Part shown: positions 5,028 through 34,417 of the stretch, piece by piece
Layout of the letters: the number at the start of each line of letters is the position of its first letter
Position numbering within the stretch: position 1 is the first letter of the stretch
Assembly (NCBI RefSeq): GCF_000374545.1
Contig: NZ_KB894608.1
Coordinates: forward strand, 1 to 45,258
From: Anaeromusa acidaminophila DSM 3853
GTDB lineage: Bacteria; Bacillota; Negativicutes; Anaeromusales; Anaeromusaceae
Direction: 5' to 3'
DNA length: 45,258 bases
Notes under the pieces: model-generated
The model's input: only the letters and a program-made list of their open reading frames with translations
Databases searched by the model: none
Told to the model about the DNA's origin: nothing
Translations under genes and position numbers: made by a program

Positions 5028-7127
5028 TCATTCCGCTCTCTTTTGCGTATAATAGAAAAACTCTTGGTCATCGTGGATCATATGATTCGTAATGATATCA
5101 TCAATGAAAAAAGAACAAAACGCAAAGGAACTAATTTTTTCAGCTACATAGTCTTCTTGTAGTTTAGCTGCTTTCGCAAGTAAGGTTTTATGGATTCTTT
5201 CATGTTCTTTTACATCTGGATATCCGATTTCCTCCAATATTTGTTCTTCGCTTTCAAAATGCTTTACAATTTCTCCGACTAAATTAACCATTAGCGAAAT
5301 TATCATTTTCCGATCCGGCTCCGGCTGCAAAGCATAATAAAAGTACTCGCTGGCCAAATTCACAAGAGCTTTATGTTGGCTATCGATTGTCGCTTCACCG
5401 CTATTCCATTCATCTCTCCATTCCACGTTCATTGACGCAACAGGAGCTAGCTTAGGGATATAGCAGACAACTCTATTTCTTCCTAATTTTTTAGCTCGAT
5501 ACAGCATTTCATCGGTTCGTTTATACCAAGATAAAAAATCTTCTTCTGCCTTTTTTTCGCTAACTCCCAGACTTGCGGTAACGTGACCGGCTATCGGATG
5601 CCTGGCGGTGTCCATAGCCACTCGGATTTTTTCCGCGGCACTTTCGGCTTCAATAATATTAGTGTGAGGCATTAAAACAAGGAATTCTTCTCCTCCAATG
5701 CGGAAAAAATGATCCGCGCTTCGAATAACCTTCTTAACCGTTTGCGCTGTTTGAATTAAAACCTCGTCTCCAATTGGGTGCCCCCATGTGTCATTTACTT
5801 TCTTAAAGTGATCAAGATCAAATAAAATCATGGCTAAGGATTCCTCATAACGTTCCGCATGAGCAATCAATTTTACCACTTCTTGTTCAAGCATTTGTCG
5901 GTTATATAGCCCAGTTAAGCAGTCTTGCGTCGCTAGTTTTTCATTCTGCGCTTTTAGCTCCTGCGTTTCTTTTAGGCTTGTATACAGCATTTTCACACCT
6001 TGCGTCAACAAGCCGATTTCATCTTTCCGCTTCAATTCTTCTTCTAACGGAATAACCGGTCTGCCATCTACAATGCTTTTTAACGCCCCGATAATTCGTT
6101 CTAAGGGGGCAAATAAACGCACTCGAAAATATACCAATGTAAAAAGAGCAAATCCCACTGCCAGGAAAAATTGCAGCGTCGCCCGCTCTAGTTGTTCTTC
6201 CGCTCTACTTTCTAAAGCGTCAACCGATCGAGCCGTTTCGCGGTTCACTTCGCGGATTAATTCAAAAATAGAATCAAAGGCTTTTACCGATAAATCAGCC
6301 AAACGGGCTGCATCAGAGCTTGTTGCGCTCCCATTCATTGTTTTTTGCAATACTTCATTTTGAAAAGGTCTATAGGTTTTATAATAATCATTGTACACTC
6401 TGTCTTTCTTTTCGGTCAGTTCCGCACGATTGATGTCAAAGACACTTTTTTCAATACCACTCCAAATGTAATCGGCTTTTGAACGATATTCAATAAAGTT
6501 CTCATATTCGCTTGGAGATAACTTCTTGCCTTGATTGACCACGGAAGTTAGTGTGCTCGCACTAGAACCGCTAAAAAGACGAAACTCAACACAATCAAGC
6601 TGAAAATGGTGATAAAAGTCAAAAAAACCGATTTCACTTGTTGGTTTTTCCAGTTCTTCAATGACTTGTTTTATGTGAAAAATGATCAAAGTCGACTCAT
6701 TAAACCAGGTAGTCCGAAACGAAATGTCTCGATCCGCTAAATTTAGCGAAGCTTGCACATCTGCATTCGATCGTAATTGCTTCAATTGATTATGCTTTTT
6801 TTTTAAGTTTTCCGCTTCTTCGGGGTTAAGAGAAGCAAGTCGATTAATTCCATCACTCAAAGAAGTATCAACCTGCCTTCTTCGCTCGGTAATGAAAATA
6901 CGATTTGCTTCGCTAAGCGGCGTTTTTGACGTTAGCACAACATTAGTTCGTCCACGTTCAAAAGCAAGCGCTTCTAGCGTAGAAAACAGAAACATACTGC
7001 ACTCGTTAATAGTCTCAATTTCTTTTGCTTTTTCCTTCTTCTCTATGACATCCACAAGCATAAAGGCGGAAGTAGAAATCAAGATCACGTTCACTAATAA
7101 AATACAGATTAGCAGTCTTCTTTGCAA
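5028..7127 (-). CDS. Diguanylate cyclase with C-terminal hemerythrin oxygen-sensing domain
   Basis: The protein is 699 residues. I prefer the TTG at 7127, which has GGAGG four bases upstream; a GTG eight codons earlier overlaps its only purine tract. Order: membrane helix (5-27), a mostly helical periplasmic domain with ERGRTNVVL resembling nitrate/nitrite-sensing NIT domains, second helix (about 318-336), HAMP (338-390), GGDEF (395-560) and bacteriohemerythrin (570-695). The cyclase signature GGEEF (478-482) is intact, with an RxxD product-inhibition site (RSAD, 469-472). The hemerythrin di-iron ligands are all visible: H585, H623, E627, H642, H646, H682, D687. It should make c-di-GMP from GTP under joint control of an external ligand and O2 or redox state. 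It is a single-gene unit, convergent with the candidate small RNA. Confidence 0.9.
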   Translation of the reverse strand: MQRRLLICILLVNVILISTSAFMLVDVIEKKEKAKEIETINECSMFLFSTLEALAFERGRTNVVLTSKTPLSEANRIFITERRRQVDTSLSDGINRLASLNPEEAENLKKKHNQLKQLRSNADVQASLNLADRDISFRTTWFNESTLIIFHIKQVIEELEKPTSEIGFFDFYHHFQLDCVEFRLFSGSSASTLTSVVNQGKKLSPSEYENFIEYRSKADYIWSGIEKSVFDINRAELTEKKDRVYNDYYKTYRPFQNEVLQKTMNGSATSSDAARLADLSVKAFDSIFELIREVNRETARSVDALESRAEEQLERATLQFFLAVGFALFTLVYFRVRLFAPLERIIGALKSIVDGRPVIPLEEELKRKDEIGLLTQGVKMLYTSLKETQELKAQNEKLATQDCLTGLYNRQMLEQEVVKLIAHAERYEESLAMILFDLDHFKKVNDTWGHPIGDEVLIQTAQTVKKVIRSADHFFRIGGEEFLVLMPHTNIIEAESAAEKIRVAMDTARHPIAGHVTASLGVSEKKAEEDFLSWYKRTDEMLYRAKKLGRNRVVCYIPKLAPVASMNVEWRDEWNSGEATIDSQHKALVNLASEYFYYALQPEPDRKMIISLMVNLVGEIVKHFESEEQILEEIGYPDVKEHERIHKTLLAKAAKLQEDYVAEKISSFAFCSFFIDDIITNHMIHDDQEFFYYTQKRAE

Positions 7128-7235
7128 AGAACCTCCAATAATAGCAACCACCTTCTTAACGAATTTTATAAGTTTCTATTTCTCTCATTGTTAACTGAAC
7201 TCCTTTTTCGTAAAGAATATTACGAAAATACTCTT

Positions 7236-13449: not shown

Positions 13450-13498
13450 GCAGCTGATACTGGCTTCACACTTTCTCACACAAAAGGAGTCCTTGTTC

Positions 13499-15439
13499 AT
13501 GAACCACGGAGAGCTTAGCCCGTTGCAGGTCATCTTTCAGCACATGCCAACCCTAGCTTGGATGAAAGATAGAGAAGGGCGCTTTTTAGAAGTCAATACC
13601 GCCTTTACCCGCTTCTGCCACAAAAGCCCTGCTGAAATTTTAGGCAAAACCGTTCACGACATTATGCCCGCTTTTTTAAGCACTGTCTATGAATCGCTGG
13701 ATACGGCGGTCCTGCAATCACGCATGCCCCAAAGCCGGGATCATATATATCGGGAAAATCGCGCCGGCAGCAATTGGTTTGACACCCAAATCATTCCTAT
13801 CTTCCATCGAAACGGCAGCCTTTGCGGCACCATCGGTTTTTCCCGTAAAATCTCCCGACGCAAGCAATTGGAGCTAAAGCTGGAAAATCAACAGCAATTT
13901 TTACGAACCATGATGGACAGTATCCCGGATATTCTTGTCTTCAAAGACCTGCAGTGTCAGGTTCTGGGCTGTAATAAATCTTGCCGCGAATTATTGTACG
14001 GTGTTGAACAGGAACAAGACGTTATTGGCAAAACTAGCTGGGACATCCTGAAAGATACCCAACTGGCGGAAAACTGCCTTAAGAAAGACTATGAGGCGCT
14101 GCTGCTGAACCAGCCTGTCAAAGTAGAGGAGCAATATACCTTAGTCAACGGCAGCGTCATTGACGTGGAAACCTTGAAAACGCCCTACCACGACAAAGAA
14201 GGCTATGTTACCGGCTTGATCGCCATCTCCCGGGACATCACCGAACGCAAGCGCTATGAACAGGAGCTGCGCTGCCGCGAGCAGCAGACCTTGAAAGAAC
14301 TGCACCTAGCCGCTCAAGTGCAGCAGGACACTTTGCCGGATGCCTTGTCCTTGCCGGAACTGCGTGTGAATACGCTCTTTTTGCCTTATCATACGGTAAG
14401 CGGTGATCTTTTTAACTACAAATGGTTCGCCCCGGAAAAAACGCTGCGCGGCTACATGGTCGACGTCAGCGGCCATGGCGTAGCTACGGCTCTGCAGACG
14501 GCTTCTTTGAAAATGCTGCTAGACACGCGTCTGCTTACTGGTGAAAGCATCACCGAGGACCATTTTGAGCTCATTAACCAACGCATTAAGCAATATCTTC
14601 ATGAAGACGCCTTCGCTGGCATCGCCTACTTCGAATTTGATCTGCAAAAATCGCTGCTTACCTTTATTTCCGGCGGAATTAATTTCTATCTTGCCGCCAA
14701 TGAAAGCCGCTGCTCTTTAATTCCCGTCAGCAGCCGTTTTCTAGGCATCTTTGACGACATTGACATGCAGACCGTCACTCGTCCTTTAAAAGCAGGCGAG
14801 GTCTACTGCATCATGAGCGACGGCGTTTCCGATTTAATGGAGCTTCATGGCTTACAAGCGCAACCTGGCTTATCCGGCTATACGCGCTGGCTTGAAACAC
14901 TGTCGCAAAAGCCGGAACGCAGCGACGATTTCTCTGCGGTGGTTCTGGAGATTAATCAATTACCCGGTCAATTGCGCCTGCCTTGCATCCAGACGCAGCA
15001 AGATCTCTCTCGGGCGCAAACAGCGATTCATGAGTATGTAACAAGCTGCGCGCCGGAAGGAGAAGCCGCTTTCCTTGAAGTAGCCGCCAACGAAGCCTTG
15101 AACAACGGCTTTTTAGCGGGTCAACGCGTTTCTTTGCGTATGCGCCGCTGCGGCAATCGCCTGAGTATACGCGTCAAAGACGACGGGCCTGGTTTTGACG
15201 CTCGCAGCCTCTTAAGCAAACTGCAAAACACCAGCCCGGAAGCTTGGTACGACGAGTTGGGTCTCCACGACCATGGCCGCGGTATTTTCTTGATGCATTC
15301 GGCCTGTGATCGCTTGGCTTACAACGCCAAAGGAAATGAAGTGCTGCTTCTGCGCAAATTCTCGACGCCGGCGCTTGAAAACAAGGAAGCCGAAACACAA
15401 AGCAATAGGGACCCAGAAAATACCAAAGGAGTTCTTTAA
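13499..15439 (+). CDS. PAS-PAS-PP2C phosphatase-HATPase partner-switching regulator
   Basis: The protein is 646 residues. I use the ATG at 13499, nine bases after AGGAG; a TTG two codons earlier is possible. Two PAS domains (about 8-120 and 130-253) precede a short coiled coil, a SpoIIE/RsbU PP2C domain (about 270-485; SGDLF, DVSGHG, MSDGVSD and a late DD carry the metal-binding Asp residues) and an RsbW-like HATPase domain (about 500-622; EVAANEALNNG, DDGPGFD, HGRGIFLM). One polypeptide thus combines a phosphatase and a serine kinase for a STAS protein, as in HsbR of Pseudomonas. PAS input should set the phosphorylation state of the STAS protein 50 bases upstream. No sigma factor gene is nearby. 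Confidence 0.92.
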   Translation: MNHGELSPLQVIFQHMPTLAWMKDREGRFLEVNTAFTRFCHKSPAEILGKTVHDIMPAFLSTVYESLDTAVLQSRMPQSRDHIYRENRAGSNWFDTQIIPIFHRNGSLCGTIGFSRKISRRKQLELKLENQQQFLRTMMDSIPDILVFKDLQCQVLGCNKSCRELLYGVEQEQDVIGKTSWDILKDTQLAENCLKKDYEALLLNQPVKVEEQYTLVNGSVIDVETLKTPYHDKEGYVTGLIAISRDITERKRYEQELRCREQQTLKELHLAAQVQQDTLPDALSLPELRVNTLFLPYHTVSGDLFNYKWFAPEKTLRGYMVDVSGHGVATALQTASLKMLLDTRLLTGESITEDHFELINQRIKQYLHEDAFAGIAYFEFDLQKSLLTFISGGINFYLAANESRCSLIPVSSRFLGIFDDIDMQTVTRPLKAGEVYCIMSDGVSDLMELHGLQAQPGLSGYTRWLETLSQKPERSDDFSAVVLEINQLPGQLRLPCIQTQQDLSRAQTAIHEYVTSCAPEGEAAFLEVAANEALNNGFLAGQRVSLRMRRCGNRLSIRVKDDGPGFDARSLLSKLQNTSPEAWYDELGLHDHGRGIFLMHSACDRLAYNAKGNEVLLLRKFSTPALENKEAETQSNRDPENTKGVL

Positions 15440-19900: not shown

Positions 19901-19976
19901 AGAGAAGACTCATCGCGACTCCTATCCAAAACCTCGTTCGCATTCGTATCTCTAGCAGAGAAAGGCGTGAGGCAGC

Positions 19977-21356
19977 ATGTCCAAGGACGAAATCGGCCAA
20001 TTGGCGGAAGCCCACCAAGTCATGTTGTCCGGAATTACCAGCGTCATCAGCCGTCTGCAGCAGGTCAACCAAAATTTAAAACTTAGCGAAGAGCGCTGGC
20101 AGTTGGCGCTGGAAGGCAGCAGCGATGGCTTGTGGGACTGGGATATCTCCACAGGTCTTGTTTTTCTGTCATGCCGAGCGCAACATTTGATGAGTTTGGA
20201 GCCGACGGAAAAACTGCTTCCTTTGCGGCATTGCCTGCAGCAGGTCATGCCCGAGGACCGCAAACAGCTTTCTTTATTAATTCGCCGCCATCTCAAAGGA
20301 AAGTATCCTTTGTTGCGGGCTGAATTTCGCGTTATCACCGACGAGGGTCCTTCTTGGCGCCTGCTCAAAGGAGACAGTTTGCGTGCAGAAGAAGGCTACC
20401 GCCCTTTGCGCATGGTAGGCTCGCTGTCCAATATCCAGTACCGCAAGAACGCCGAGCGGCAGCTGCGCGAGGCCAACGAAAAATTAGAAAGCAAAGTCCA
20501 GGAGCGCACACAGGCGCTGGCGCAAAGCAATCAGCAATTAACGCAGACGCTAGAACAGTTGCGCAGCGCGCAGGAGCATGTACTGCAGGCGGAAAAGCAG
20601 GCCGCCCTTGGCGTTTTAGTCAGCGGCATCGCCCACGAGCTCAACACCCCATTAGGCATCAGCATTACCGCTTCCTCCCATGCCCAGCAGGTACTGCAGG
20701 AAACGCAGGAGGTTTTAAACGCCCCCGCCGTCAGCCGCCAACAGCTACAAAGCCACCTGGATTTATTAGCACAAAGTCTGCATCTTTTAGAGGACAATCT
20801 GGAACGCAGCGCTGATTTAGTACGCCGTTTTCGTACGGTTGATGTAGAGAACAGCAGCGCCTCTCAATGGTTTGATGTCAAGCAGTACCTCTATGCTATC
20901 GCCCACAGCCTGGAAAACGAATTGAACTACACGCCCCATCACCTGTCTATTTCCTGCCCGGATCAGGTGCAGCTCTTCGGTCCCCCTACCGCCTTTTCCC
21001 AGATCATCACCAACTTAATTCGCAATTCCTTGCAACATGCTTTTCCTACTAAGCAAGCAGGAGAACTGTCCATAGAAGTCCGTCCCTCCGAGACCGCGCT
21101 AGAACTCATTTACAGCGATAACGGCGTTGGTATGCCGCCGGAGGTGCTTGCTAAAATTTTCGATCCTTTCTTCACCACTAAACGCGGTCAAGGCGGCACC
21201 GGCTTAGGCCTATATATCTTATATTCTTTAACAACCAAAAGCTTTCGCGGCAGCGTTACCTGCCAAAGCCAACCTGGGCAAGGCGCACGCTTTCTTTTTT
21301 CTTTCCCCGTCAAAGAAGCAACAGAGCCATTAACGCCGCTGCAAGGAGGGAGCTAG
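19977..21356 (+). CDS. Cytosolic PAS sensor histidine kinase starting inside a HAMP domain
   Basis: The protein is 459 residues with no membrane segment. Residues 3-30 (KDEIGQLAEAHQVMLSGI) look like the second helix of a HAMP domain. Then come a PAS domain (about 40-160), a coiled coil (about 165-215) and a kinase core with H-box SGIAHELNTPLG, N-box NLIRNSLQHA, G1 DNGVGMPPE, F-box FDPFFTTKR and G2 GGTGLGLYI. It should autophosphorylate on the H-box His. An in-frame TGA lies nine bases before the ATG, so no HAMP first half is encoded upstream. GTGAGG precedes the ATG. The next gene, two bases away, encodes the missing kind of part. No response regulator is adjacent. Confidence 0.9.
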   Translation: MSKDEIGQLAEAHQVMLSGITSVISRLQQVNQNLKLSEERWQLALEGSSDGLWDWDISTGLVFLSCRAQHLMSLEPTEKLLPLRHCLQQVMPEDRKQLSLLIRRHLKGKYPLLRAEFRVITDEGPSWRLLKGDSLRAEEGYRPLRMVGSLSNIQYRKNAERQLREANEKLESKVQERTQALAQSNQQLTQTLEQLRSAQEHVLQAEKQAALGVLVSGIAHELNTPLGISITASSHAQQVLQETQEVLNAPAVSRQQLQSHLDLLAQSLHLLEDNLERSADLVRRFRTVDVENSSASQWFDVKQYLYAIAHSLENELNYTPHHLSISCPDQVQLFGPPTAFSQIITNLIRNSLQHAFPTKQAGELSIEVRPSETALELIYSDNGVGMPPEVLAKIFDPFFTTKRGQGGTGLGLYILYSLTTKSFRGSVTCQSQPGQGARFLFSFPVKEATEPLTPLQGGS

Positions 21357-21357
21357 G

Positions 21358-22443
21358 ATGGGCATTCGCATCAAGCTAACACTTATGTTTTCCCTGCTTC
21401 TTACCGTCAGCCTACTGTTGGCCAGTTTGGTAGAATACCAGTTTGCCCGGCAACAATTGCTGTTGCACCTGCAAAAAGAAAGCAACGCTGTTACCCAAGC
21501 AGAAGTGGCCCGCCTTGATTTCTGGCTGCAGCGCAAAGCAGTCGCCTTAGAACAAACCGCCAGTTTCTTGCCGCTGCTCCCTCGCTCGCCGGAAAGTCTG
21601 CAACCATTATTGGCGCGACAACTGAGTCTTGACTCCGATATTACCGATATCTATTTAGGCACGGAAGAAGGCGTGATGATCGACGGCTCCCGCTGGCAGC
21701 CGCCGACAGGCTACGACCCTCGACAGCGCCCATGGTATCGCCAAGCGCTTTTTTCATCCGGCTTAGTCTTCAGCGACCCCTATCTGGATCTGGTTACCAA
21801 CCAATACGCCATATCCATCGCCAAACAAGTGCGCCTTGATAATCAAGCGCTGGCCGGCGTTCTCAGCCAAGATGTGCCTCTGTCTCGCTTTTTAGATCGT
21901 ATCCGCCATATTCAGCCTTTTGATGGCGGATATGCCTTTTTGTTGGATCAGAACGGCATCATTCTGGCTCACCCGGATCCAAGTCTGCAGTCGCTGGACA
22001 TTAACCAGTCAGAAACCCTCCAAGCCCTGCCGCCTGAAATGCGCAGCGACCTGCTACAGCAAAGCGAAGGCTTTCTTGAATACACATTTCAGAATGAATC
22101 ACGCTTAGCTTACTTTGGCAAGCTCCCCAGCACAGGCTGGACATTGGTCATCACCTTACCGCGCAGCTATCTTGACGAACCATTGCGCGAGCTCTTGCTA
22201 CGCTACCTCTTTTTGACGTGTTTCGCGCAAGTTTTAACTCTCTTTTGCATTCACCGTTTGGCGAATCAATTCATTCGCCCCTTGGAATCCCTCACTCTGC
22301 AAGCCCGCCAGGTTTCCGGCGCTGTACAGCGGCTGCAAGAACGCCTAGATGCCGGTGAAAACCCAGCCCAGCTATCCGATTGGGCGCAAGATCTCCCTTC
22401 CTCCAAGCCGGTACAGGCGGAAAATCGTCCCGAAAAGCCTTGA
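21358..22443 (+). CDS. Orphan dCache sensor membrane protein ending in a HAMP first helix
   Basis: The protein is 361 residues from an ATG with AAGGAGG eight bases upstream, one base after the kinase stop. TM1 (about 7-27) is followed by a double-Cache extracellular domain (about 35-275) with the ligand-pocket signature YDPRQRPWYRQA, then TM2 (about 278-300). After it IRPLESLTLQARQVSG matches HAMP helix 1, and the protein then ends with about 45 unstructured residues and no output domain. Cache domains bind small metabolites such as amino or organic acids. It most likely feeds the upstream kinase, so that the two proteins together form Cache-TM-HAMP-PAS-kinase. That is inference from gene order and domain content. 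Confidence 0.85.
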   Translation: MGIRIKLTLMFSLLLTVSLLLASLVEYQFARQQLLLHLQKESNAVTQAEVARLDFWLQRKAVALEQTASFLPLLPRSPESLQPLLARQLSLDSDITDIYLGTEEGVMIDGSRWQPPTGYDPRQRPWYRQALFSSGLVFSDPYLDLVTNQYAISIAKQVRLDNQALAGVLSQDVPLSRFLDRIRHIQPFDGGYAFLLDQNGIILAHPDPSLQSLDINQSETLQALPPEMRSDLLQQSEGFLEYTFQNESRLAYFGKLPSTGWTLVITLPRSYLDEPLRELLLRYLFLTCFAQVLTLFCIHRLANQFIRPLESLTLQARQVSGAVQRLQERLDAGENPAQLSDWAQDLPSSKPVQAENRPEKP

Positions 22444-22500: not shown

Positions 22501-22615
22501 ACTCTTATCAAGAGCGGTGGAGGGACTGGCCCTTTGAAACCGCGGCAACCGGCCTCCCGAGGCGTCCGGTGCTAAATCCAGCGGAATGCATGCGTTCCGA
22601 CAGATGAGGGAGAGA
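22501..22615 (+). promoter_or_regulatory. SAM-I (S-box) riboswitch
   Basis: The leader carries the S-box core: CTTATCAAGAG, GGTGGAGGGACTGGCCC, TGAAACC, CGGCAACC, GGTGCTAAATCC, and the closing P1 strand GATGAGGG, which pairs with CTCTTATC at 22502-22509. S-box RNAs bind S-adenosylmethionine and then favour a terminator. The terminator is present at 22630-22661. This predicts that the downstream genes are expressed when SAM is low. Confidence 0.95.
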
Positions 22616-27420: not shown

Positions 27421-27616
27421 AAACGCCACACCCTTATTGAATAGTTTAATTGAAAGTAACTTCCATTTCTCTTTACAGAAACCCTTCTAACTCTATTTTC
27501 TTATTTTCTTTCACTAAAAGCAGGAATCAGCTGTTTTTTTTCGAAGTTATGAAAATCACATAATTTGTCTATTTTAAGTTATTTTATTGTGCAGCAACTG
27601 CCTAAGGAGGGTTTTC
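27421..27616. other. Divergent promoter region, amidohydrolase and flagellin
   Basis: An AT-rich spacer with no gene. It holds a dyad TTATG-N7-CATAA near 27547-27563 that could bind a regulator. I could not identify a convincing sigma-28 promoter. Confidence 0.35.
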
Positions 27617-30571
27617 GTGAGAATTCTCGATGCCACTTGTGCCTTACGTGCTGTAAACCAGCTAAATAAGAATAGCGCCGCTAGTAATAAAGTATTGCAA
27701 AAATTGGCCAGCGGCTATCAGATTAATCATGCTGCCGATAATGCCGCAGGCCTAGCTATCAGCGAAAAGATGCGCGCCAATATCTGGGGTCTAGAGCAGG
27801 CTGCCCGCAATATCCAGGATGGCATGAGCTATCTGAATACTGCTGACGGATATTTAGAAGACATTCAGAATCCTGCCTTACTGCGCTTGCGGGAACTAGC
27901 CGTACAAGCGTCGAACGGATTTTTAACCCAAAGCGACCACCAAGCCATTCAAAACGAAGTCGATGAAATCAAGGCGCACTTGCAGCAAACCTTCCGCACC
28001 GCACAATTCAACACCATTCCCATTTTTGCCCAAGACATCAAAAAAATCAAAACGCCAATTCCAGGTATCTTGCCTGGGGACACCCTCCTCCGCCAGTATG
28101 GCTTAACCGTGACAGCCGGCAATAATGATCACCTAACGTTTCGCCTAGATGATACCTCCTATTCTCTCACCCTAAGCCCAGGGTATTACACGGCAGACCA
28201 GCTTGTGAGCACCTTAAACAGCAAATTTGCAGCTTTAGGGACCGATGTAACCGTATCTTTCGAAAAAGACAGCCTTGTCTATCATTCTCCTAGCAAAATT
28301 CTCGACAGTTTAGGCGGCTCCATGATTGAAATCGACTCCCCCCTTGCCTATACCTCCATCATCTATGACAACCGTAATGCTGGCCACATTCAAGGCGCAT
28401 ACATCCAAGGATGGGAAGATCTCTCCGACGGAGTAACAATTAACAGCACGAACAATACTCTCTCCTTTCGCCTCGGCGATGCCGGAACCTATACAAATGT
28501 CAGCATGACCTTTCCTGACGGCTCCTATACCGCTTCTCAAATCGTCGATACCTTAAATACTTATTTTACCACCAATTCTTATCCGGTCACCGCTTCTTTA
28601 AATGGCAATTACCTGAAAATCCAGCATAATAACTGTGGTAGCGACTATACTCTCGATACCTGGGGCGGTACGGCTAAAGCCGTCATCTTGGACCGCCTTG
28701 TTACTTCATCAATAATGGAATCCTACAATAACAGTCCCCCAGATGCCAAGGCCATCTTTGCTGGATATGGCATACTGCCTAGCAGCCTTGACATTCAAGC
28801 TGGAAAAAACGATACTTTTCGTTTTTCAGTTGACGGCAGCTCGCACATATTAGCTTTATCTGCCGGAACCTACTCGCCAGCAACCCTTGTGACCCATCTA
28901 AACAACCTGTTCACTGCTAACAGCATTTCTGTAACCGCCGCACTCAGCAGTGGACGGCTGCAGCTAACCTACAGTGGCGCTGGCAGTGGCTCCATCGGCG
29001 GTACTGCCGGAATGGCTGCTTATACGCTGCTGGGCGGCGCTGCCATCGCCCCTACAGAATCTCCAGGCACCTATTATCTGGTAGAAGGCAGCACAGAACC
29101 GCATGCAGGTAATCATGCCAGCGTCACTGGCCATACAGCACTAAATAACGGTGTCCAGATTATTGCCGGCTTTAACGACACACTAACCTTTAATCTCAAT
29201 GGGGCCCCCCAGAGCATTACACTGGCTGCTGGCTGGTACGCCTCTTCTGGCACTATAGTGAGCGCCCTCAACAGCGCCTTAAGCGGCCTGGACGTCACTG
29301 CCTCTTACAACGGATCTGCACTGGTCTTTACACACAACATGGCTGGCGGCGGTGTTCCCCAATTTCCTTATTCCCTAAATAATTTTTCCGGCAACGCCTT
29401 GACCACCCTTATGACCACCCCTATGCCTGTTAATACAGCTTACGGTACCAGCAGCACCTACAGCAGCGTAACCGGCTCAGCCAATATCGAAAATATCACC
29501 ATCACTGCTGGTGTCAACGACGGTCTCACTGTCACATTAAACGGCACTGCTCATACTCTTACTCTTGATGCCGGCACCTATATCAAAACAGACCTCTTAA
29601 CTATGCTCAACCAAAAGCTATCAGCAGAAGGCATCGGCAGCCAAATTGAGGCTCTATCTTCCTCCTCTAACTTGCAATTAAAAGCTCTAATCACAGGCAC
29701 GGGTACCCAATTTAACGCTATCACTGGCACAGCCAGCAACACTCTCTTCCGAGCAATTACTACTTATTACATTAATGCAAGCTCGTATTCTCCCAGCGAG
29801 GACGATACTTATATAGACGGACGTCTCAATTTAGCAGAAGACACGATAACCATTAGCCAAGGAAAAAATGACGTCTTAGCTTTTGATCTCACTACCGACG
29901 GCATAGCAACGCGCAAAAATATCACCTTATCTGAAGGCGAGTATGATCCCGCTTCGCTGATATCCATGCTCAATCAAAAGCTGCAGGAAGCAGGCCTCGA
30001 CGTACAAGCATCCGTCAAAAATGTAACTACGCCCCAAAAAACGATGCCGGTCTTATCGCTTACCTATGAGCCTGGAAAAAATGGTAATTTTGTTATTGAC
30101 GGCGTCGGCGGCAGCGCCTCGTACAGCATTTTTTATCCAGGACCCTACAATCTTAAGTTCACAGGCGGCGAAAAACTCTATTTTCAGGTGGGTGCCAATA
30201 CGGGCAATCGCTTTTATTCCGGCACTCAGCTTGTCATGAACCTGGAAGTACTCGGCTTAAACCGGCTGGATATGACCAACTGGAGCGGCGCACAGCAAGC
30301 GCTAGAAGACATCGATACCGCCGCGGCCTCGGTTTCTGCCGCCCAGGGCCTTATCGGGTCCAAATATAACGCCCTGCAAGCCTTATCTAATAATGTCACC
30401 TTGTCTGCAGAAAATCTGCAGACAGCGGAAGCCCGCATTCGAGATACAGACATGGCGAAAGCCGTGTCAGAACAAATCAAGCTCTCTGTTTTAATGCAAG
30501 CTGGCACGGCAGCATTGATTCAAGCAAACCAACAACCAAAAACCGTATTATCTTTGTTGGAAAATCGCTGA
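27617..30571 (+). CDS. Giant flagellin with six repeated central modules
   Basis: The protein is 984 residues, about twice or more the usual flagellin. I take the GTG at 27617, seven bases after AAGGAGG. The N-terminal D0/D1 helices (1-145) are typical: RAVNQLNKNSAASNKVLQKL, ASGYQINHAADNAAGLAIS, GLEQAARNIQDGMS. The C-terminal D1/D0 (about 885-984) ends with RIRDTDMAKAVSEQIKLSVL, AALIQANQQP. Between them lie six related modules starting near 162, 272, 390, 512, 626 and 742, each with the pattern I-x-x-G-x-N-D-x-L-x-F, then ITL-x-x-G-x-Y, then L-x-x-x-LN. They should form a large variable surface domain on the filament. No flagellar assembly or chaperone genes are adjacent. Confidence 0.93.
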   Translation: MRILDATCALRAVNQLNKNSAASNKVLQKLASGYQINHAADNAAGLAISEKMRANIWGLEQAARNIQDGMSYLNTADGYLEDIQNPALLRLRELAVQASNGFLTQSDHQAIQNEVDEIKAHLQQTFRTAQFNTIPIFAQDIKKIKTPIPGILPGDTLLRQYGLTVTAGNNDHLTFRLDDTSYSLTLSPGYYTADQLVSTLNSKFAALGTDVTVSFEKDSLVYHSPSKILDSLGGSMIEIDSPLAYTSIIYDNRNAGHIQGAYIQGWEDLSDGVTINSTNNTLSFRLGDAGTYTNVSMTFPDGSYTASQIVDTLNTYFTTNSYPVTASLNGNYLKIQHNNCGSDYTLDTWGGTAKAVILDRLVTSSIMESYNNSPPDAKAIFAGYGILPSSLDIQAGKNDTFRFSVDGSSHILALSAGTYSPATLVTHLNNLFTANSISVTAALSSGRLQLTYSGAGSGSIGGTAGMAAYTLLGGAAIAPTESPGTYYLVEGSTEPHAGNHASVTGHTALNNGVQIIAGFNDTLTFNLNGAPQSITLAAGWYASSGTIVSALNSALSGLDVTASYNGSALVFTHNMAGGGVPQFPYSLNNFSGNALTTLMTTPMPVNTAYGTSSTYSSVTGSANIENITITAGVNDGLTVTLNGTAHTLTLDAGTYIKTDLLTMLNQKLSAEGIGSQIEALSSSSNLQLKALITGTGTQFNAITGTASNTLFRAITTYYINASSYSPSEDDTYIDGRLNLAEDTITISQGKNDVLAFDLTTDGIATRKNITLSEGEYDPASLISMLNQKLQEAGLDVQASVKNVTTPQKTMPVLSLTYEPGKNGNFVIDGVGGSASYSIFYPGPYNLKFTGGEKLYFQVGANTGNRFYSGTQLVMNLEVLGLNRLDMTNWSGAQQALEDIDTAAASVSAAQGLIGSKYNALQALSNNVTLSAENLQTAEARIRDTDMAKAVSEQIKLSVLMQAGTAALIQANQQPKTVLSLLENR

Positions 30572-32190: not shown

Positions 32191-34305
32191 TTAGCCGGAT
32201 TCCTGCAAATAAAAGTCTCGTTGATTATGCCGCAGAATATACATTGCAGCATCTTCCGCCGCCAACGGCGGACTATATAAATAGCCTTGATAAACAGTAC
32301 ACCCCATGGAGCTAAGCACTTGCTGCTGCCTTTGCGTTTCCACATATTCGACAACCATTTCAAGCCCAAGAGAGGCGCAAAGAGAAGTAATCGATAAAAT
32401 GATTTCTTGACTACTTTTATCTTCAACTACATTGCGGCTCAGCATGCCGTCGATTTTGAGGGTATCCATAGGAAAGTTTTGAATATATCGCAAAGAAGTA
32501 TGCCCCATGCCAAAATCGTCAATCGCCAGCCGTACCCCCATGTTTCGCAGCGCTTCTAGATTTTTCGCCGTATTTACATCGGCCGTAATCGCAGCAGTCT
32601 CCGTAATCTCGATTTCTAAATCCTTCGGACACAGCGCGTTTTGCTGCAAAATCACACGCACCTGTTCACTCAACAACGACGCTTGCAACTGACGCGGCGA
32701 AATATTCACAGAGACTCGCACATTAAAAATCCCCATCCGTTTCCAACATTGCAGCTCTGAGCAGGCTTCTTGTATAATCCACCGCCCTAGTTCATGAATC
32801 AAGCCGCTTTCTTCGGCAATCGCAATAATAACCGGGGGCGCCACCGCTCCATATAAAGAATGCTTCCAGCGCAGCAACGCTTCTGCCGCTACTACTTTCC
32901 CAGCCGCATTGACTTGCGGCTGATAGACTAAAACCAATTCTCTTTTTTTCAGACTCTCTTTGAGATCATGCGCTAACGAGCGCGCCAGCACGCCTTGTGC
33001 ATCCCCACGTTCCAAGAGTCTCTTATCGGGCGCGGCGTTCTGGAACAGACTCTGCTGCAAGCCTTGAAAGGCAAGATTCATTTCTTCTTTTCTTTGTTTT
33101 TCATTCCACCTCACAAAAGGAATGTAAATCAATGTCCCTAACAGCAAATTTAGCGCCTGCAAGGCCACGCCAAACCAAGAACCGCTCACAACATAGCCGC
33201 TAAAAAATACAGGCATGGTCCATGATACAAGCGGTGCGTCCGCTGGCAGCCACCCGAAGTATAACGCGCCAAAGGTCGTAACCATCGCCACTATCGGCAC
33301 GAGCACAAAGGGCAGTAAAAACGTAGGATTAAGAACAATTGGCAAGCCAAATACTAATAGCTCATTAATATTAAAAACGGCAGGAACCAGAGACAGCTTT
33401 ATCAGCCATGACATCGCCCCGCGCCTAGATACCAGCAGCAACGCCAGCAGAAGGCTCAGCGTCATTCCCGCTCCACCCATAAGCACAAAAGCCTCAAAAT
33501 AGTGCAAAAAAGCATTAGGCTCTATAAAAACCGTTGTTCCTGAATACTGTACGACTTCCAGCGTATGAAGATAGTCTAACACCGGGTTCATCAGACGACT
33601 GCCATGCATCCCAAAAAACCAAAATACATGCACAAAAAAAGGAAATAAAAACATCGTCAAACTGGTATGTGCAAGGTCGTTCATCCAATTCGACAAGAAT
33701 ACATAAATACATGCCTGCACATCAAACAAACCAGACCAAGCCGCAAAAAGATGCACTGCATAAAAAGAAAGAATCGTTGCTGTGGCAGGAACCATATTAG
33801 AGAGAACCTGTGCTAAAAGCGGATCTCCTACATCCGCTCTACATAAAATATACCGCCCTCCACGGGACGTAAAAAACAACACCATCTCTGTTGCCACAAC
33901 GGCGGTAGCCACACCAATCCAAAGGCCGTCCGCCCCTGTCCAAGAAGAAGAAAAAAAGGCTAAATCCTGCAAGCTCCAAGAAGGCATCAGAACGAAAAAA
34001 GAAGTTAAAGAAACCAATGCAGCCATCATGGGATGGATCCGTCTTTTGCTCTCCGCTTCCGCCAAGCAATAACTGATTGCTCCTATAACAGTAAGGTTCA
34101 TTCCTTTCATCGCCGCAACGCCCAACAAACCGAAATAGGCAAACGTCTCTTTGTCCAAAAAGGTGACAAAGGTTGGCAGCGCCCCTAACATAATGGCAAA
34201 AGCGCCGATAACAATCAAAGGCAGGTTCAACAAGAATCCTTGGCGGATCGCCCTTAAATGCCGTTGACTGGTCAGCCAGTCCGTAATCCCTTGTATTTGT
34301 TTCAT
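32191..34305 (-). CDS. PTS EIIC (cellobiose/lactose type)-EAL fusion, c-di-GMP phosphodiesterase
   Basis: The protein is 704 residues from the ATG at 34305 behind AAGGAG. Residues 1 to about 405 are a sugar-permease EIIC domain of the lactose/cellobiose class with about ten helices and the motifs FWFFGMHGS and NINELLVFGLPIVLNP. A linker leads to an EAL domain (about 450-695). Catalytic residues are intact: E475 of EALLRW, N534, E569, D596-D597 of IDDFG, K617, E653 and E656 of VEYVET, and Q673 in QGYLYSPPL. No EIIA, EIIB or sugar hydrolase gene adjoins, so EIIC likely serves as a sugar sensor that controls c-di-GMP hydrolysis. That function is inference; transport with distant EIIAB is possible. 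Confidence 0.92.
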   Translation of the reverse strand: MKQIQGITDWLTSQRHLRAIRQGFLLNLPLIVIGAFAIMLGALPTFVTFLDKETFAYFGLLGVAAMKGMNLTVIGAISYCLAEAESKRRIHPMMAALVSLTSFFVLMPSWSLQDLAFFSSSWTGADGLWIGVATAVVATEMVLFFTSRGGRYILCRADVGDPLLAQVLSNMVPATATILSFYAVHLFAAWSGLFDVQACIYVFLSNWMNDLAHTSLTMFLFPFFVHVFWFFGMHGSRLMNPVLDYLHTLEVVQYSGTTVFIEPNAFLHYFEAFVLMGGAGMTLSLLLALLLVSRRGAMSWLIKLSLVPAVFNINELLVFGLPIVLNPTFLLPFVLVPIVAMVTTFGALYFGWLPADAPLVSWTMPVFFSGYVVSGSWFGVALQALNLLLGTLIYIPFVRWNEKQRKEEMNLAFQGLQQSLFQNAAPDKRLLERGDAQGVLARSLAHDLKESLKKRELVLVYQPQVNAAGKVVAAEALLRWKHSLYGAVAPPVIIAIAEESGLIHELGRWIIQEACSELQCWKRMGIFNVRVSVNISPRQLQASLLSEQVRVILQQNALCPKDLEIEITETAAITADVNTAKNLEALRNMGVRLAIDDFGMGHTSLRYIQNFPMDTLKIDGMLSRNVVEDKSSQEIILSITSLCASLGLEMVVEYVETQRQQQVLSSMGCTVYQGYLYSPPLAAEDAAMYILRHNQRDFYLQESG

Positions 34306-34417
34306 GCCAGAGCGACTCCTTCTCTTAAGGAAAATACACATACTTTATGGTAATTCAAAGAAAATAGTGTAAAATCCTTTTTTTAGGAAATCGTCTCTGC
34401 CAAAAATGCTCTGTCTC

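Follow-up and report, generated by a model that had tools for sequence, protein, structure and literature searches.

A HAMP domain divided between two adjacent genes of Anaeromusa acidaminophila: a probable two-chain sensor kinase

Introduction

HAMP domains relay signals in very many bacterial receptors. They form a parallel four-helix bundle that couples the second transmembrane helix (TM2) to the output. How the two helices AS1 and AS2 move during signalling, as rigid bodies or by loosening, is debated.

In Campylobacter jejuni, CetA and CetB form a bipartite energy-taxis receptor (PMC2628428). The domains of a single receptor, Aer, are there distributed over adjacent co-transcribed genes, one for a membrane protein and one for a PAS protein. 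In Rhodobacter sphaeroides, CheA3 and CheA4 form a split kinase in which the phospho-acceptor domain is apart from the catalytic domain (PMC3591291).

We analysed a stretch of 45,258 nucleotides of Anaeromusa acidaminophila DSM 3853 (contig NZ_KB894608.1 of assembly GCF_000374545.1), hereafter the window, in which a gene for a soluble histidine kinase is followed by a gene for a membrane sensor. Coordinates are those of the window and refer to its forward strand unless noted otherwise. The nearest working analogue of this pair is CetA/CetB. Here as well, two adjacent genes correspond to a receptor known as a single chain, represented by the dCache-HAMP-kinase G050:C177 and by the kinases of family f6 described below. 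However, the whole HAMP domain lies in the membrane protein CetA, whereas the membrane partner studied here has AS1 only. In addition, the output of CetA/CetB is a chemotaxis signalling domain and its PAS protein has no kinase, whereas here the PAS protein is the kinase. The resemblance to CheA3/CheA4 lies in the use of two chains, but there one histidine kinase function is divided, whereas here the sensor is separate and the kinase core is whole. In a search of mainly open-access literature, no precedent for a split or partial HAMP domain was found.

Results

The first gene of the pair (19977-21356) encodes a histidine kinase of 459 residues, in which open reading frame and domain matches outline a HAMP helix 2, a coil, a PAS domain, a DHp region and a HATPase domain. 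No transmembrane peak was found in this protein. Its ATG codon is preceded by two in-frame stops, TAG at 19953-19955 and TGA at 19968-19970, both kept in the four available genomes of the genus; the sequence-only reading had noticed one. The HATPase_c catalytic domain (residues 337-446, 20985-21314) was matched at 8.5e-25. The PAS domain, at about residues 46-152 (20112-20432), is indicated by a weak PAS_3 match, by PDB entry 3mr0, whose match spans residues 34-170, and by the predicted fold. H220, in the sequence AHELNTPLG (codon 20634-20636), is the probable phospho-acceptor; it was invariant in an alignment of 27 kinases, together with N350, G383 and G411, so that the protein has the H-box histidine and the N, G1, F and G2 motifs expected of a sensor histidine kinase.

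The second gene (21358-22443) encodes a dCache_1 membrane protein of 361 residues that has no output domain. The dCache_1 match reached 1.3e-32, and transmembrane peaks at residues 7 and 280 indicate two membrane segments. No MCPsignal match was found in this protein, whose chain ends after AS1 and an extension. The TAG stop of the kinase and the ATG of the sensor lie 1 nt apart, and with the Shine-Dalgarno sequence AAGGAGG they occupy positions 21343-21360, a spacing kept in the four genomes. Because this strong Shine-Dalgarno sequence sits inside the 3′ end of the kinase gene, translation of the two genes is probably coupled. Upon alignment with the PctA structure 5ltx, residues Y119, R124, W126, Y127, Y142 and D172 of the sensor (21712-21873) correspond to Y121, R126, W128, Y129, Y144 and D173 of PctA, so that all six compared residues of the dCache_1AA motif (PMC10104139) are in place. 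A likely ligand of the sensor would therefore be an amino acid. PctA differs in being a chemoreceptor that carries a signalling domain of its own, whereas the present sensor has no output domain.

In order to locate HAMP sequences, we used a profile of 48 positions, built with 58 HAMP domains that belong to other loci. Residues 2-17 of the kinase (SKDEIGQLAEAHQVML, 19980-20027) matched positions 30-45 with 13.3 bits, that is the last third of the profile only. This corresponds to AS2, and the earlier claim that the kinase begins at HAMP helix 2 was thereby borne out. Residues 304-320 of the dCache protein (QFIRPLESLTLQARQVS, 22267-22317) matched positions 2-18 with 8.9 bits, corresponding to AS1 only. 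In 5000 shuffles of each segment, neither score was attained once. Among 4350 control pieces of 60 residues, taken from proteins without a called HAMP domain, 2 reached at least 13.3 bits and 7 at least 8.9 bits, and the majority of the highest-scoring pieces lay within degenerate HAMP domains of relatives. Both halves keep HAMP-specific sequence, namely P-L-x-x-L in AS1 and DEIGxLA in AS2, which has the DExG start of a helix 2. AS1, connector and AS2, which by definition stand in one chain, are thus not found together: AS1 and AS2 are on separate proteins, the profile matched a connector in neither of them, and none of the forward frames ahead of the kinase start contained an AS1. When joined artificially, AS1, a generic connector and AS2 scored 48 bits and a direct join scored 17.5 bits, as compared to 80 for a typical full HAMP domain; since we supplied the connector, these joins carry no weight beyond that of the two half-matches. 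The sensor tail SDWAQDLP, which aligns with GDWDQKLP of kinases, was considered as a connector and rejected, because only two of the four genomes retain the pattern and it earned no score with the profile.

Structure predictions were obtained for both proteins. For kinase residues 3-48, AlphaFold2 predicted a single unbroken helix that begins in AS2 and leads into the PAS domain (pLDDT about 65-85); the segment that the sequence-only reading had required to be helical is thus predicted to be so. In the sensor, a helix was predicted from TM2 through and past AS1 (residues 270-331), followed by a short helix (336-345) and then by disorder, all with low confidence and from a shallow alignment. 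The statement that the dCache protein ends soon after helix 1 holds only in part: AS1 is present, but it is followed by a conserved extension of about 25 residues (322-347, 22321-22398), which resembles neither a HAMP connector nor AS2 and beyond which the sequence is variable.

Conservation was examined in four genomes of the genus, one of which is assembled as a single contig. All four contain the same pair, in the same order and with the same 1-nt gap, Shine-Dalgarno sequence and neighbours. The order reversed with respect to a normal sensor kinase, as first noted in the window, is therefore conserved across the genus. Identity to the window's pair was 92-93% for the kinase and 86-87% for the sensor. 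The synteny HAD-ALP-PhoU-MgtC-kinase-sensor-HcyBio was found in the four genomes, with a HAD phosphatase, an alkaline phosphatase, PhoU and MgtC upstream and HcyBio-Fer-ApbE-like-MetF downstream. A SAM riboswitch (22502-22610; Rfam RF00162, 90.9 bits) stands at the start of the next operon (HcyBio-ferredoxin-MetF) and marks the end of the kinase-sensor unit.

With one near-identical genome pair left out, dN/dS was 0.05-0.07 in the kinase gene and 0.08-0.17 in the sensor gene. Both genes are under strong purifying selection and are kept for function. Within the kinase, residues 1-45, comprising AS2 and the coil, are the most constrained part (dN 0-0.009, dS 0.36-0.57); dN was 0.04-0.06 in the PAS domain and 0.03 in the kinase core. 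In the sensor, AS1 and the residues from 322 to about 345 are conserved, and conservation is lost abruptly in the tail. As a separate observation, the 63 nt that code for AS1 (22258-22320, codons 301-321) show no difference between genomes G000 and G001 (dS 0), as compared to a whole-gene dS of about 0.6; this stretch is possibly a recombination patch.

The search for single-chain orthologues proposed on the basis of the sequence did yield single-chain relatives. Outside the genus, full-length relatives of the kinase occur only in one other family of the class, f6, where they are single chains with lengths of 794-816 residues. They consist of an N-terminal Cache-like sensor, a transmembrane segment, a HAMP-like region, a PAS domain and a kinase, and are about 40% identical to the kinase from its residue 4-5 onward, over the kinase, AS2 and PAS regions. 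In four of the f6 genomes examined, a DUF3369-HD response regulator directly follows the kinase. A more distant relative, G018:C1, is a single chain of 671 residues that is 34% identical from residue 1. The sensor parts of the f6 kinases gave no BLAST match with the present sensor at 1e-8, and the relatives of this sensor in the class are mostly chemoreceptors (32-39%). The two halves need therefore not share one parent protein. However, sensor and kinase modules do occur fused in normal order, since G050:C177 is a single-chain dCache-HAMP-kinase of 692 residues, with 34% identity in the sensor and 39% in the kinase core and with a complete HAMP domain that has SKDEISILAQEFNIM at helix 2. The single-chain relatives (G050:C177 and those of genomes G026, G037, G050, G055 and G120) thus have the modules of the pair in one chain and in normal order.

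With the N-terminal part of the kinase as query, 380 genomes of the class yielded no further gene that begins at AS2, nor was there one among the proteins that match the kinase in a set of about 400 phylum genomes. A DNA pattern for AS2 starts, which detects only ATG starts with an upstream GAGG and is not exhaustive, retrieved from 310 genomes of the class nothing beyond the four members of the genus and a single match that is out of frame. Two candidates were discarded. L134, considered as an independent AS2-start protein, is a GGDEF-HD protein and adjoins an N in its contig. A dCache open reading frame of 411 residues in G003 is part of a GGDEF-EAL protein that is interrupted in the G003 assembly; its orthologue in G000 has 986 residues.

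Discussion

Our results suggest that the two genes probably encode one bipartite sensor kinase, in which a dCache-AS1 protein signals to an AS2-PAS-kinase. Several observations support this reading: the complementary HAMP halves, together with the conserved order, 1-nt gap, Shine-Dalgarno sequence and synteny; the single chains that carry both halves in normal order; and an AS2 that is predicted to be helical and continuous into the PAS domain and that, with the coil, shows the strongest constraint within the kinase. Each protein also supplies what the other is missing, the sensor having no output domain and the kinase no membrane sensor. We consider a functional pairing of sensor and kinase to be rather probable. 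Counting against the two-chain reading, soluble PAS-containing kinases can work alone, the sensor has no connector and its helix is predicted to run past AS1, the f6 sensors do not match the present one, most relatives of which are chemoreceptors, and no cognate regulator was found on the contig.

A two-chain kinase of this type could operate as follows. The sensor would be a dimer in the inner membrane, and its periplasmic dCache_1 domain would probably bind an amino acid. The signal would pass via TM2 into the cytoplasmic AS1 helix and, through a presumed inter-chain contact that may be HAMP-like in character, to AS2 and the coil of the kinase. From there it would reach the PAS domain, the DHp and CA domains and finally an unlinked response regulator. 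A nearby cognate response regulator is common for kinases but not obligatory, and no Response_reg match was found on the pair's contig. As a guess, the target may be the genome's only DUF3369-HD regulator, of the type that adjoins single-chain relatives of the kinase, which would then be shared, as it adjoins another kinase related to the present one (G000:C4).

How the two chains might meet is a matter on which we can be less definite. One reading, which we hold to be less likely than not and which agrees with the two-chain suggestion of the sequence-only reading, is that a HAMP domain is assembled in trans, with AS1 of the sensor and AS2 of the kinase forming a mixed four-helix bundle. The retained signatures of AS1 and AS2 and the extreme constraint on AS2 favour such a bundle, which is only plausible because the sensor has no connector and because its helix is predicted to run past AS1, a non-canonical end for a HAMP domain. 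If so, the pair might be a transmembrane kinase in which sensor and output are free to come together, to separate or to swap partners. It is likewise less likely than not that the proteins form one sensor unit devoid of a HAMP bundle, the long helix of the sensor (AS1 and residues 322-345) docking in another way on the coil or PAS domain of the kinase. Such docking would agree with the conservation of residues 322-347, so unlike a connector or AS2, and with the helices predicted at 270-331 and then at 336-345, but it leaves aside that HAMP-specific sequence is retained in AS1 and AS2 alike.

It appears unlikely that the kinase is an autonomous PAS kinase of the cytosol, in which AS2 is a remnant with no role left but to begin a dimerising coil. 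The dCache protein would then be a separate sensor with another signalling target or a co-transcribed passenger. The PAS and kinase domains do look complete, helix 3-48 leads directly into the PAS domain and could dimerise alone, and the nearest relatives of the sensor are mostly chemoreceptors. However, AS2 and the coil are more constrained than a remnant would have to be, four genomes share the gene order, the spacing and the synteny, and a sensor without output that is under purifying selection needs a partner. Finally, it is highly improbable that the split results from faulty sequencing or assembly or that the genes are a pair of decaying pseudogenes. The assembly is a draft in 61 contigs, of which the window is one, but we ruled this reading out because four genomes, including one assembled as a single contig, have the same split, because the positions of start, Shine-Dalgarno sequence and stop are conserved, and because dN/dS is low.

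As to its origin, the split may possibly reflect a permutation, in which tandem duplication of a single-chain dCache-HAMP-PAS-kinase was followed by complementary losses near the HAMP connector, the first copy losing its front and the second its back. Complementary break points, the reversed gene order and the existence of single-chain dCache-HAMP-kinases are in line with this scenario. On the other hand, no DNA similarity was found between the region upstream of the kinase and the 3′ end of the sensor gene, and in trees each of the two proteins sits on a long stem and lacks a single-chain sister. Moreover, capture of a chemoreceptor-derived sensor beside a truncated kinase is equally possible and explains the data equally well.

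If the two-chain reading is correct, a transmembrane kinase has been cut between sensor and output and is still kept by selection, and one sensor could serve several kinases, or the reverse. A natural HAMP domain without connector would also let the two halves be varied separately.

Other genes of the window

Four further genes were recorded. A protein of 716 residues (32191-34341, reverse strand) combines a PTS EIIC membrane domain with an EAL domain and is thereby an unusual sensor for c-di-GMP turnover, similar in type to a sugar transporter. A GGDEF protein with a C-terminal hemerythrin domain is encoded at 5028-7151 (reverse strand). The 648-residue product of 13493-15439 (forward strand) has the layout PAS-PAS-SpoIIE phosphatase-HATPase_c_2, with a phosphatase and an anti-sigma-type kinase in one chain. 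The gene at 27587-30571 (forward strand) encodes a very long flagellin of 994 residues, about 750 of which lie between the N- and C-terminal flagellin domains.
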